The notes under the pieces were generated by a model. The model was given only the letters and a program-made list of their open reading frames with translations, searched no databases and was not told where the DNA came from. From contig NZ_CP089291.1 of assembly GCF_022818495.1 (NCBI RefSeq), positions 3,179,501-3,243,500 on the forward strand: a stretch of 64,000 nucleotides of DNA. Direction: 5' to 3'. A program made the position numbers and the translations under genes. Shown piece after piece: positions 7,031-12,297 of the stretch. Every line of letters begins with the position of its first letter. The first letter of the stretch is position 1. This stretch comes from Fodinisporobacter ferrooxydans (GTDB lineage Bacteria; Bacillota; Bacilli; Tumebacillales; MYW30-H2).

Positions 7031-7396
7031 GTGTTTTTGAAATCGAAAGAAAGCGCATTTAATGAAATCATCCGAAAAGTCCGCAAAGATCTTTTTGGAA
7101 AAGGCCCGGAACGCATACGAACGGTTTTTTTGGAGAATATGGCAATCACGACGCTGTATGGGAATTTGACTCCGACGGAAAAATTTATTGCAAAGACGGC
7201 GGAAGGGGCGGAGATGATTCATGCTGCTCGCACCAAAATGATTCAGCAGATGTATAAAGAGAAAGTGCCGGAAGGTTTGGAGGAATTGATGGATGCAAAG
7301 CTGCAGCATCTGTTCTCTGACTTTCATGTGGATGATGATATGGCGGTTTCTATTTTTATTTTTGATAAATCTATTGATTCTGTAAACAACAATTGA
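7031..7396 (+). CDS. DUF2294 family protein
   Basis: A 121-residue cytosolic protein of the DUF2294 family, which is common in Bacillota and has no firmly known function. Hallmarks are the blocks RKDLFGKGPERIRTVFLENM, LYGNLTPTEKFIAKT and MIHAARTKMI, and a C-terminal LFSDFHVDDDMAVSIFIFD, all spanning the normal family length. The start is a GTG at 7031 with GAGAAAGTGGGA upstream. A TTG two codons later is a possible alternative. It is a single gene between the dap genes and the formate operon leader. Confidence 0.8.
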   Translation: MFLKSKESAFNEIIRKVRKDLFGKGPERIRTVFLENMAITTLYGNLTPTEKFIAKTAEGAEMIHAARTKMIQQMYKEKVPEGLEELMDAKLQHLFSDFHVDDDMAVSIFIFDKSIDSVNNN

Positions 7397-7442
7397 TACT
7401 ATTTTGAAGACGGATTATAGTATAGTTTCTGTTGTTTTACAA

Positions 7443-7705
7443 TCAGGCATGCTTAAGTGAGTGGTCAGACAGTGGTTAAGCAAAACCGCAAGTTGTGCGA
7501 AGTCGAAGCAAAGAGCGATTTTTGAAAAATCGGTACATCATGGCGCATGGAATGATGGCGCGGGCGTGAAGCACGCGTTTTCGCTATCAAACCAAGTTTT
7601 ACATAGTTGGATATCTGGTTGAACTTTCTATATCGATCATGTGGATAGAATTAACCAGCATGAAACGGCTCCAGGTTCGGAGTTTGTTTTATGCTGGTTT
7701 TTTTT
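7443..7705 (+). promoter_or_regulatory. candidate riboswitch/attenuator leader of the formate operon
   Basis: About 340 bases without a gene precede the formate transporter and are rich in complementary segments. GCTTAA (7451-7456) pairs with TTAAGC (7476-7481). AGCGA (7514-7518) pairs with TCGCT (7581-7585) and encloses CATCAT/ATGATG and GCGTG-AAG-CACGC, as in a multibranch junction. CTGGTT (7615-7620) plus TTCTAT (7626-7631) pairs with ATAGAA (7645-7650) plus AACCAG (7653-7658). That last AACCAG is also the left arm of the terminator at 7653-7705, so the two structures exclude each other. This is the layout of a transcriptional riboswitch or protein-controlled attenuator. I could not match the upstream domain to a known class by eye. 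Confidence 0.6.
7653..7705 (+). terminator. regulated terminator upstream of the formate transporter
   Basis: AACCAGCATGAAAC pairs with GTTTTATGCTGGTT, with an inner CTCC/GGAG stem in the loop and an uninterrupted run of T residues after it. The gene starts only about 40 bases later, so this terminator controls the operon rather than ending an upstream one. Confidence 0.85.
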
Positions 7706-7745
7706 ATATATATTCTATTTATTTTTCATTTAGGAGGAAAAGAAA

Positions 7746-8570
7746 ATGGCGTTTCATTCACCGAAAAAAATTGCGGAGTTGTCCGTGCAGGCAGGTATCA
7801 ACAAGGCCAATATGCCGTTGCCCAATCAGTTGATCCTGGGATTTTTGGCAGGAGCCTTTATTGCTTTGGGCTTTTTGCTGGATATTCGGGTTACTGCCAG
7901 TTTGCCGAAAGACTGGGGAACATTTGGGGCATTTCTCGGCGCTTCCGTCTTCCCGGTGGGACTTATGTTGGTCGTAATCGCAGGGGCAGAATTATTAACG
8001 GGAAATATGATGACATTGCCGATCGCATTATTTTCCAAACGGGTCGGAGCAAGTCAAGTCATTCAGAACTTTTTTTGGATTACAATTGCGAACTTTATTG
8101 GATCTATATTTGTAGCATATGTATTTGGCCATGTGGTGGGATTGACAGCTTCCGGTCCGTTTTTACTGAAAACGGTTGCGATTGCCAATGCAAAATTGCA
8201 TGACAGTTTTATTCAAGCATTTTTCTCGGCGATCGGCTGCAACTGGTTGGTCGCTTTGGCGGTCTGGATGGCATATGGGTCGGAAGATATCGGCGGCAAG
8301 ATTCTCGGCATCTGGTTTCCCATCATGGGCTTCGTAGCGATTGGATTCCAGCACGTGGTTGCCAACATGTTTGTCATCCCGGCTGCCATTTTTGAGGGCC
8401 ATGCGACTTGGGCCGACTATTTCAGAAATTTTGTTCCCGTATTTTTGGGAAATTTGGTCGGCGGCGGCCTGTTCGTCGCGTCTGCGTACTGGGTTACATA
8501 CATTCGTGACGGAAAATCTGCCAGCGCGGCAAGCGGCGCGCAGCAGTCAAACCAAACGACAGTCGCGTAA
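7746..8570 (+). CDS. formate/nitrite transporter family channel
   Basis: A 274-residue membrane protein of the FNT (FocA/NirC) family, pentameric channels moving formate or nitrite across the cytoplasmic membrane. Six hydrophobic segments are visible, with the family blocks FLAGAFIALGF, GAELLTGNMM and GCNWLVALAVWMA, and GFQHVVANMFVIP in the second half. The ATG is preceded by TTAGGAGGAAAAG. It is the first gene of an operon with formate dehydrogenase, so formate uptake for oxidation is the likely role. The operon is probably controlled by the attenuator-like leader upstream. Confidence 0.9.
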   Translation: MAFHSPKKIAELSVQAGINKANMPLPNQLILGFLAGAFIALGFLLDIRVTASLPKDWGTFGAFLGASVFPVGLMLVVIAGAELLTGNMMTLPIALFSKRVGASQVIQNFFWITIANFIGSIFVAYVFGHVVGLTASGPFLLKTVAIANAKLHDSFIQAFFSAIGCNWLVALAVWMAYGSEDIGGKILGIWFPIMGFVAIGFQHVVANMFVIPAAIFEGHATWADYFRNFVPVFLGNLVGGGLFVASAYWVTYIRDGKSASAASGAQQSNQTTVA

Positions 8571-8641: not shown

Positions 8642-11600
8642 ATGTCTACAAAACAAGAAGAGCAAACAGTCAAGCAGGCGGTGCAGATTACCATAGACGG
8701 AAAAACGTTGGGAGCATCTTCCGAACAAAGTATTCTGGAGGCAGCTTTGCAACAAGGACTGGAAATTGCACATATTTGCTACCATCCGAATCTCGGGGCG
8801 ATTCAGTCTTGCGATACGTGTACGGTTGAAGTCGATGGAAAGCTCGTTCGTTCCTGCGCCACGAAGGTGACAGATGGAATGATGATACGGACAGATTCGC
8901 CAAGCGTCAAGGAAGCGCAACAGGTGGCAATGGATCGGATTCTGGAAAATCATTTATTGTATTGCACCGTGTGCGATAACAACAACGGCAATTGTAAAGT
9001 TCACAATACGGCTGAGCTTTTGCAAATCGAGCATCAAAACATCCCGTATCGTTCCAAAGGGTATGAAGTGGATATGAGCAATCCCTTCTATCGGTACGAT
9101 CCGGATCAGTGCATTTTGTGCGGGCGCTGTGTGGAAGCTTGTCAAGACCTGCAGGTAAATGAAACACTCTCCATCGATTGGGAAGCGGATCGTCCCCGTG
9201 TCTTGTGGGATCATGGTTCGCCGATCAATGAATCGTCCTGCGTTTCCTGCGGCCATTGTGTCACCGTTTGCCCATGCAACGCACTAATGGAAACATCCAT
9301 GCTCGGCGAAGCTGGTTTCTTGACAAAAACACAGCCGGACGTTTTGGACTCCATGATCGATTTGGTGAAACAAGTAGAGCCGGGGTATGGCGGGATCTTT
9401 GCCGTTTCCGAGATCGAGTCGGCGATGCGGGATACGCGGATACAGAAGACAAAGACCGTCTGTACATTTTGCGGCGTCGGCTGTACATTTGATGTCTGGA
9501 CAAAAGACCGCCACATTTTAAAAATCGAACCGACGCCGGAAGCGCCTGTCAACGGTATTTCCACATGTGTCAAAGGAAAATTCGGCTGGGATTTTGTCAA
9601 TAGTGAAGAACGGTTGACAACGCCGCTGATTCGGCGCGGCGATACATTTGTCGAGGCAACTTGGGAAGAAGCCTTTGACCTGATTGCAAGCAAACTTTCA
9701 CAGATCAAAGAACAGCATGGTGCAGACAGTCTAGGTTTTATCTCATCATCGAAAATCACAAATGAAGAAAACTTCCTGATGCAAAAATTGGCTCGCGGCG
9801 TTATCGGCACCAATAATGTGGACAATTGTTCCCGCTATTGCCAGTCGCCGGCGACGGATGGACTTTTTCGAACCGTCGGCTATGGCGGCGATGCCGGGTC
9901 GATTCACGACATAGCAAATGCCGGCCTGGTGATCATCGTCGGCGCAAATCCGGCCGAAGCGCACCCGGTACTGGCAACGCGTGTCAAGCGGGCACACAAA
10001 TTGCACGGACAAAAATTGGTCGTTGCCGACTTGCGGAAACATGAAATGGCGGAACGGGCAGACGTATTTGTACGCCCTGCGCCTGGCACCGACCACATCT
10101 GGCTGTCTGCGGTCGCAAAGTACATCATTGACCAAGGGTGGCAGGCAGAAGCGTTTTTACGGGAGAAAGTGAATGGGCTTGATGAATATTCCAGATTTTT
10201 GCAGACATATACCTTGGAATACGCCGAAACAATCACTGGCATCAAGCGGGAAACGCTGATGGAAATCGCCCGCATGATCCGGGATGCGGACGGTACCTGC
10301 ATCTTGTGGGCAATGGGTGTAACACAGCATTGCGGCGGCAGCGATACGAGCGCGGCGATCAGCAATTTGCTTTTGATTTCCGGCAATTATGGCCGTCCCG
10401 GTGCGGGCGCATATCCGTTGCGCGGACATAACAATGTACAAGGCGCCTGTGATTTCGGTACGCTGCCCAAGTTTTTCCCTGGATATCAACTGGTGACGGA
10501 TGAGGACGTTCGCAGCAAGTTTGAACGGGCATGGGGCACTCCGTTGTCTGACAAACCTGGCATGGATAACCATGAAATGATCGATGCGATCCATGAAGGC
10601 AAATTAAAGGGCATGTATTTGATCGGAGAAGATATGGCCTGGGTGGATTCCAATGCCAATCACGTCCATGCAGCACTTGGAAAACTGGACTTTTTTGTCG
10701 TACAGGATATTTTCTTTACAAAGACAGCGCAATTTGCCGACGTCATTCTGCCGGCCAGCCCGAGCCTGGAGAAAGAAGGCACGTTTACGAATACGGAGCG
10801 GCGCATTCAGCGGTTGTACCAAGTATTCGAGCCATTGGCTGGAAGCAAGCCGGACTGGCAAATCATTTGTGAAATCGCCAACCGGTTGGGCGGCGACTTC
10901 TCCTACCGGCATCCTGGCGAAGTGATGGAGGAAGTGGCCCGTCTTACGCCGCTGTTTGCAGGAGTATCCTATGAACGGCTGGAAGGATATAAAAGCTTGC
11001 TGTGGCCGGTAGAAGCAGACGGTACAGACACTCCGCTGTTGTATACGCAATCGTTCCATTTCCCGGACGGCAAAGCGAGACTGGCCTGCGTGGATTGGGT
11101 ACCGCCCGTGCAAATGCCGGATGAGTACGATTTGCATCTGAACAACGGACGCTTGCTGGAACATTTTCATGAAGGGAATTTGACAAATAAATCGACAGGC
11201 ATCCAGCACAAAGTGCCGGATACGTTTGTGGAAGTGTCTCCCGAACTGGCCGCAGAACGGGGAATCGTCGACGGCATGTACGTTCGGCTGGAATCTCCCT
11301 ATGGCAAGGTAAAGGTGCGGGCTGTTGTGACAGATCGGGTACATGGCAAAGAACTGTATTTGCCGATGAATTCCGTGAGTGATGAAGGAGCTGTCAATCT
11401 TTTGACAAGCAGCTTTACAGATCACATTACACATACACCGGCGTATAAGGAAACAAAAGTGAAAATGACCGTCTTGGAAGAGCGGGGAAGCCATCCCTTG
11501 CCGCGTTCCAATCCTCGCTTTGGCCGCCGGCAGCCGCAGCTCGGCATTCAAATCGAACAAAAATGGCAGCGCGCCGATTATACGCCCATTCATGATCGTT

Positions 11601-11710
11601 TCGAACCTGCAGACAGCGCGGACAAAGAAGGGCGCGCACAGACGCGCCAAAAGGAGGGGAATGAAAGTGGCAAGAGCAATTACGCATATTCACAGGCAAG
11701 CGCCAAGTAA
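8642..11710 (+). CDS. formate dehydrogenase alpha subunit, molybdopterin type
   Basis: A 1022-residue cytosolic formate dehydrogenase catalytic subunit related to B. subtilis YjgC/YrhE. In order there is an N-terminal 2Fe-2S ferredoxin domain (CYHPNLGAIQSCDTC), a His-Cys cluster domain (HLLYCTVCDNNNGNCKVHN), two 4Fe-4S motifs (CILCGRCVEACQ and CVSCGHCVTVCPC), and the catalytic domain with its own cluster (CTFCGVGC) and bis-MGD site. The metal ligand position is Cys (NCSRYCQSPATDG), so no selenocysteine is needed. The C terminus runs about 50 bases into the next gene. AAGGAGG precedes the start. No FdhD or beta subunit gene is in the window. Confidence 0.93.
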   Translation: MSTKQEEQTVKQAVQITIDGKTLGASSEQSILEAALQQGLEIAHICYHPNLGAIQSCDTCTVEVDGKLVRSCATKVTDGMMIRTDSPSVKEAQQVAMDRILENHLLYCTVCDNNNGNCKVHNTAELLQIEHQNIPYRSKGYEVDMSNPFYRYDPDQCILCGRCVEACQDLQVNETLSIDWEADRPRVLWDHGSPINESSCVSCGHCVTVCPCNALMETSMLGEAGFLTKTQPDVLDSMIDLVKQVEPGYGGIFAVSEIESAMRDTRIQKTKTVCTFCGVGCTFDVWTKDRHILKIEPTPEAPVNGISTCVKGKFGWDFVNSEERLTTPLIRRGDTFVEATWEEAFDLIASKLSQIKEQHGADSLGFISSSKITNEENFLMQKLARGVIGTNNVDNCSRYCQSPATDGLFRTVGYGGDAGSIHDIANAGLVIIVGANPAEAHPVLATRVKRAHKLHGQKLVVADLRKHEMAERADVFVRPAPGTDHIWLSAVAKYIIDQGWQAEAFLREKVNGLDEYSRFLQTYTLEYAETITGIKRETLMEIARMIRDADGTCILWAMGVTQHCGGSDTSAAISNLLLISGNYGRPGAGAYPLRGHNNVQGACDFGTLPKFFPGYQLVTDEDVRSKFERAWGTPLSDKPGMDNHEMIDAIHEGKLKGMYLIGEDMAWVDSNANHVHAALGKLDFFVVQDIFFTKTAQFADVILPASPSLEKEGTFTNTERRIQRLYQVFEPLAGSKPDWQIICEIANRLGGDFSYRHPGEVMEEVARLTPLFAGVSYERLEGYKSLLWPVEADGTDTPLLYTQSFHFPDGKARLACVDWVPPVQMPDEYDLHLNNGRLLEHFHEGNLTNKSTGIQHKVPDTFVEVSPELAAERGIVDGMYVRLESPYGKVKVRAVVTDRVHGKELYLPMNSVSDEGAVNLLTSSFTDHITHTPAYKETKVKMTVLEERGSHPLPRSNPRFGRRQPQLGIQIEQKWQRADYTPIHDRFEPADSADKEGRAQTRQKEGNESGKSNYAYSQASAK

Positions 11711-12140: not shown

Positions 12141-12180
12141 ATCTATCATAGGATCGGAAGAATATGTTTGAAACGCATGG

Positions 12181-12297
12181 AATCACATGGAATCACATGG
12201 AATCACATGGAATCACATGGAATCACATGGAATCACATGGAATCACATGGAATCACATGGAATCACATGGAATCACATGGAATCACATGGAATCACA
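12181..12297 (+). repeat. 10-bp tandem repeat array, 11 copies
   Basis: Eleven perfect copies of AATCACATGG (12181-12290) are followed by a 7-base partial copy and preceded by a degenerate copy. The unit contains no stop codon and its length is not a multiple of three, so all three forward frames stay open and give artificial repetitive reading frames (MESHGITWNH). The array lies after the formate operon and before its terminator, so it is probably in the 3' untranslated RNA. Confidence 0.97.

Follow-up and report, generated by a model that had tools for sequence, protein, structure and literature searches.

Attenuator leaders are a known kind of regulatory system, and the closest described counterpart of the leader analysed here is that of Bacillus subtilis yrhE (forC2). 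In the accessible part of the source report, this leader is an uncharacterised RNA that co-precipitates with Hfq, with a peak of 139 nt, listed as a new sRNA or the yrhE leader region and showing the highest enrichment ratio in Table 2 (PMC3574147). It stands in the same place and before the same type of gene, between yrhF, the mpsC homologue, and yrhE; however, that part of the report describes no structure, terminator or mechanism for it (PMC3574147), and its homology to the family described below is presumed. The yrhEFG genes are up-regulated on cytoplasmic acidification in B. subtilis (PMC2788229), and forCE2 expression is reported to follow growth phase and ResED, not formate (PMC8808070).

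Several better known systems resemble the leader in part. T-box leaders likewise choose between a terminator and an antiterminator with a conserved bulge, but the bulge consensus of the present family is not UGGN in most members, and a T-box assignment was rejected on this ground and because Rfam gives no match at the gathering threshold or in E-value scans. The BglG/LicT and ANTAR systems use a protein-bound hairpin that overlaps a terminator, as a protein-dependent mechanism would require here. The best Rfam match for the family loci, however, is to bglG-cis-reg, and its 31.3 bits fall short of the gathering score of 80; ANTAR elements were dismissed because the loops, inspected by eye, did not consistently form hexaloops with A1 and G4. 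The Moco, THF and ZTP (pfl) riboswitches are linked to molybdenum or one-carbon metabolism, and none of them has an Rfam match in the window (the whole 64,000-nucleotide stretch of Fodinisporobacter ferrooxydans DNA analysed here) or in the family loci. More generally, Rfam yields no match at curated thresholds in the window, nothing credible at E-values up to 10 for positions 7380-7760, and no family match for the family loci at gathering or permissive thresholds. No description of the leader family was found in the openly available journal literature, and it appears to be undescribed in both the literature and the RNA library searched.

The leader occupies the 349-base gap between mpsC and a formate/nitrite transporter (FNT) gene, in the order mpsC, gap, FNT, ForC/FdhA-type formate dehydrogenase; all leader and gene features described for this locus are on the + strand. 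The mpsC gene (DUF2294, YrhF-like; 7031..7396; Pfam PF10057, E 1.4e-32) lies directly upstream of the leader. It is followed by the FNT gene (7746..8570; PF01226, E 1.7e-78) and the molybdopterin formate dehydrogenase gene, identified by its Pfam domains (8642..11710). A possible leader promoter, TTGATA-17-TATAGT (7393..7421), matches the consensus at 10 of 12 positions; promoter-like sites in the leader region are no more numerous than in shuffles, so the evidence for it is weak. A preliminary description of this DNA had proposed an unassigned attenuator- or riboswitch-like leader tied to the formate genes, and this proposal holds in part. The attenuator reading stands: Rfam lists no known class at 7380-7760, and related leaders precede formate genes in other Bacilli; a riboswitch is one of the possible mechanisms discussed below. 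The segment 7542-7707 is probably a diverged copy of an Rfam-absent family of Bacilli leader RNAs, which would regulate the genes for ForC-type formate dehydrogenase and FNT through transcription attenuation.

The layout of hairpins in the window copy is that of a transcription attenuator that terminates by default. None of 200 dinucleotide shuffles folds as stably as the leader (z -3.7). An intrinsic terminator, AACCAGCATGAAAC...GTTTTATGCTGGTT plus T8 (7653..7705), reaches -28 kcal/mol on its own. Folds and pair probabilities identify an antiterminator (7602..7668) in which ATCTGGTT (7613-7620) pairs with AACCAG-C-AT (7653-7661), around an inner hairpin of TCTATAT (7627-7633) and ATGTGGA (7639-7645), and in which CATAGTTGG (7602-7610) can serve as an alternative 5’ arm to CCAGCATG (7655-7662). 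Upstream, fold and model alignment place a 5’ hairpin (7553..7589; P1/P2 of the family, where the equivalent helix covaries) that pairs TGATGGCG (7553-7560) with CGCTATCA (7582-7589) and, internally, GGGCGTG with CACGCGT. A possible anti-antiterminator (7587..7622), identified by complementarity alone, would join TCAAACCA (7587-7594) to TGGTTGA (7616-7622), a position equivalent to helix P3 of the family.

The antiterminator and terminator states are mutually exclusive. Nascent-chain pair probabilities put the antiterminator pair C7615-G7658 at 0.95-0.99 in transcripts ending at 7662-7690; when the transcript ends at 7698, this pair drops to 5e-5 and the terminator (7653-7699) stands at 0.997. 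The growing transcripts thus bear out the earlier claim that the terminator arm AACCAG is shared with an antiterminator in mutually exclusive stems. The arms named for that antiterminator are all present (AACCAG 7653-7658, CTGGTT 7615-7620, TTCTAT 7626-7631, ATAGAA 7645-7650). Of the two pairings proposed, CTGGTT with AACCAG stands, but TTCTAT with ATAGAA gives way to the better inner stem of TCTATAT and ATGTGGA. Leader-peptide attenuation was also considered and set aside: the leader in the window is overlapped by ORFs of 22-53 aa, but inspection of relatives by eye shows no reading frame that is conserved.

Part of the gap is of different origin. A DNA search with the whole leader matched only repeat copies in the organism’s own genome (~7450-7510), and this search detected the repeat in none of 60 relatives. 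It belongs to a dispersed, MITE-like element 155 bp long and bounded by terminal inverted repeats. At least 40 copies were scored in the genome (the best 40 of 207 first-look candidates), and the element perhaps numbers about 200 there. Of 30 copies, 26 carry an exact 5-bp target duplication (TNNNA), where shuffled pairing would give 3.8, and the element has no match in plasmid records. The left terminal sequence of the element is present at 7457..7511, outside the conserved leader, with ~82% identity to the genome copies over ~55 bases (E 1e-8 to 8e-7). No right end was found at the expected distance, and the right half aligns no better than shuffles; thus, 7457-7511 is a truncated relic. This match to the element’s left end is what could suggest that the structured leader in its entirety arose from a transposon, as an array of hairpins. 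That origin is scarcely credible: the similarity stops near 7511, beyond which the leader bases show no alignment to the element; a leader family present in other genomes matches 7542-7707; and the repeat was found in none of the 60 relatives. The relic also redraws the upstream domain of about 170 bases envisaged in the preliminary description, since ~55 nt of its supposed aptamer are transposon sequence and the part homologous to other leaders is 7542-7707. The complementary arms listed for that domain all exist (GCTTAA 7451-7456/TTAAGC 7476-7481, AGCGA 7514-7518/TCGCT 7581-7585, CATCAT 7536-7541/ATGATG 7552-7557, GCGTG 7564-7568/CACGC 7572-7576). They do not form one domain, however: GCGTG/CACGC sits in the 7553-7589 family hairpin, whereas GCTTAA/TTAAGC falls at the end of and inside the relic.

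When FNT loci from other Bacilli were searched with the entire leader, as DNA or as a profile, no clear leader-length match emerged; the family was uncovered by spotting similar terminators by eye and then building models. Near-identical terminators precede FNT in eight Neobacillus-type loci, whose leaders align over 160-170 bases, and several of the loci of this type and of relatives that carry a leader before FNT have a second, homologous one before FdhA. The seed leaders stood before FNT or FdhA, and models R1 and R2 were built without the window’s genome. Among 399 Bacilli genomes, R1 detects full-length leaders in 30, with formate dehydrogenase nearly always the next gene. A phylum-wide search gave matches in 4 of 398 genomes, and the one match outside Bacilli is short and terminator-only. 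Among 44 model-found loci inspected, 38 directly precede a ForC-type formate dehydrogenase, two, from different genomes of a single genus, stand before a TRIC/UPF0126 membrane protein that has genes for molybdate transport and the molybdenum cofactor as neighbors, and one precedes a PsiE-like protein; the remaining loci are marginal or terminator-only. The short terminator-only matches in genomes G222 and G432 and the marginal match in G008 were left out as members. Gene order in two genomes of the window’s order (G001 and G009) is mpsC-leader-forC, and in G191 it is mpsC-leader-FNT, as in the window. The family supplies the homologous leaders that the preliminary description had suggested collecting upstream of FNT-FdhA operons in related Bacilli: they are conserved, and their 5’ hairpin and terminator covary.

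Family leaders carry a 5’ hairpin that varies in sequence, followed by an antiterminator whose core is invariant and then a terminator. Covariation is strong in the 5’ hairpin and is also evident in the terminator. In a MAFFT alignment of 15 leaders, 36 cells change on both sides of a pair, versus 16 in shuffles and at most 13 with partners slid. Across 40 members, changes on both sides occur at 27 of 38 pairs (156 cells, versus 50 shuffled and at most 46 slid); this alignment was fitted to the model and is therefore biased in its favor. The arm AUGGCGGG is complementary to the terminator 5’ arm CCCACCAU, and the two are paired in 83% of cells versus ~40% when slid; this antiterminator pairing is a conserved feature of the family, though too invariant for covariation beyond shuffles. 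The core, within the antiterminator, combines GGA and a bulge with a GUAY...UGC hairpin, and a U-G wobble in this hairpin is kept in 37 of 40 members. The 5’ hairpin is apparently absent from some members that precede formate dehydrogenase, including those of the window’s order, which points to the antiterminator core as the probable sensing element of the family.

Comparison of the window copy with these models supports common descent. First, 7542..7707 matches R2 over the full length of the model at 36.1 bits, and it scores 26.1 bits with R1. Second, the match is specific on the scale of the whole genome. R2 gives two significant matches in 4.86 Mb, the window copy (E 2.3e-4) and a second leader at C1:537718-537892 (43.7 bits) that keeps the conserved core, and no other site exceeds 21 bits; E-values are rough because calibration was short. 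The second leader lies in a locus (C1 532000-541500) ordered fdhD (divergent)-mpsC-leader-forC-forE-psiE (PsiE-like). A third formate dehydrogenase/FNT pair in the genome (C1 1107500-1114500, divergent, with ~130 bases between the genes) has no leader match. Third, the window leader has the placement typical of the family, directly upstream of FNT and near mpsC; its terminator contains CATGAAACGG and TTTTATG, which are common to family terminators, and the terminator 5’ arm can also pair upstream, as in the family. A pattern search for the core, GGA-NUGG-...-GUAY...UGC, found it absent from the window copy. Scored against a model lacking the terminator, the copy obtains 4.3 bits (E 0.48), which leaves its homology resting mainly on the terminator, the full-length fit and position. 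This model also misses the intact leader elsewhere in the genome, however, and therefore has poor sensitivity at this distance. The window attenuator shares descent with the family and its sensing core is diverged or lost; given the replaced core and the low score without the terminator, it is termed a divergent relative and not a full functional member. With the most conserved core gone, its response may differ from that of its relatives or be absent altogether.

These structures suggest how the leader would work. During transcription the 5’ hairpin would form first and the antiterminator second. Once 7690-7699 has been made, the stronger terminator would be expected to reclaim the antiterminator 3’ arm AACCAG and halt transcription ahead of FNT-FdhA. 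From the invariant letters in the family antiterminator, we infer that a signal stabilises this hairpin and turns the genes on; the window copy, with its replaced core, could still respond in this way. A simpler account is that the hairpin at 7653-7705 is an ordinary mpsC terminator and the antiterminator pairing a by-product. In the window the terminator does lie 3’ of mpsC, with weak promoter evidence between them, and the core is degenerate. This account is nonetheless improbable: several relatives have mpsC in divergent orientation or at another place, and leader and terminator still stand before formate dehydrogenase, the leader match is specific across the whole genome, and antiterminator occupancy stays at 95-99% until the terminator is complete. 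Attenuation by a leader of the formate dehydrogenase family remains the preferred reading.

The leader occurs almost only before formate genes, and the signal is thus directly testable, as either a formate/molybdenum-cofactor sensor or a target of MpsC/YrhF. It is possible, if short of probable, that the family works by protein-dependent antitermination, in which an RNA-binding protein, possibly MpsC/YrhF, binds and stabilises the conserved antiterminator hairpin. MpsC (PF10057) is encoded in all 26 leader-positive genomes searched, whereas only 9 encode it among the 16 FNT-positive genomes in which no leader was detected; the two sets are not independent in descent. In leader-positive genomes mpsC usually adjoins the leader or shares its gene cluster, and the small conserved hairpin with an internal loop and invariant U-G wobble resembles protein-bound antiterminators. 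However, the structure model of MpsC is of low confidence (pLDDT 57) and establishes no RNA-binding fold, a PDB search found no solved relative, and MpsC may be a mere partner of formate dehydrogenase. A formate or molybdenum-cofactor signal is equally possible, and a direct ligand riboswitch, with formate or a molybdenum-cofactor-related molecule as the ligand of the antiterminator core, is entertained with the same reserve. This would be consistent with the near-exclusive link of family leaders to formate dehydrogenase and FNT, with the position of two exceptions in a molybdenum-cofactor/molybdate-transport gene cluster, and with the response of B. subtilis yrhEFG to cytoplasmic acidification (PMC2788229). 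On the other hand, the conserved core is small and is missing from the window copy, Rfam scans assign neither Moco, THF nor any other class, and the B. subtilis forCE genes are seemingly not expressed under formate induction conditions (PMC8808070). A more specific proposal, which we regard as rather unlikely, makes the family a new class of riboswitch that would sense formate, or the cofactor state of formate dehydrogenase, and in response turn on the transport and oxidation of formate in Bacilli; the window copy would then have been re-tuned with a new core.

The family represents a shared, testable RNA control element, not in Rfam, for formate dehydrogenase and FNT genes across several Bacilli families. 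It may also account for the B. subtilis yrhE leader, reported as strongly Hfq-enriched in the accessible part of PMC3574147.

A few minor observations concern other loci. The marginal match in G008 (E 0.04) precedes an MFS carboxylate transporter whose best NCBIfam assignment is L-lactate transporter, and the G191 genome carries a family leader before a PsiE-like gene that is followed by an ApbC/Mrp gene. Seven Paenibacillus FNT loci have in common a hairpin without an Rfam match, TTCGCCGTG...GTTTCGTTCCCCCGA...CACGGCGAA, located 3’ of FNT. In the window itself, positions 12176-12297 hold 12.2 copies of a perfect 10-base tandem repeat, CATGGAATCA.
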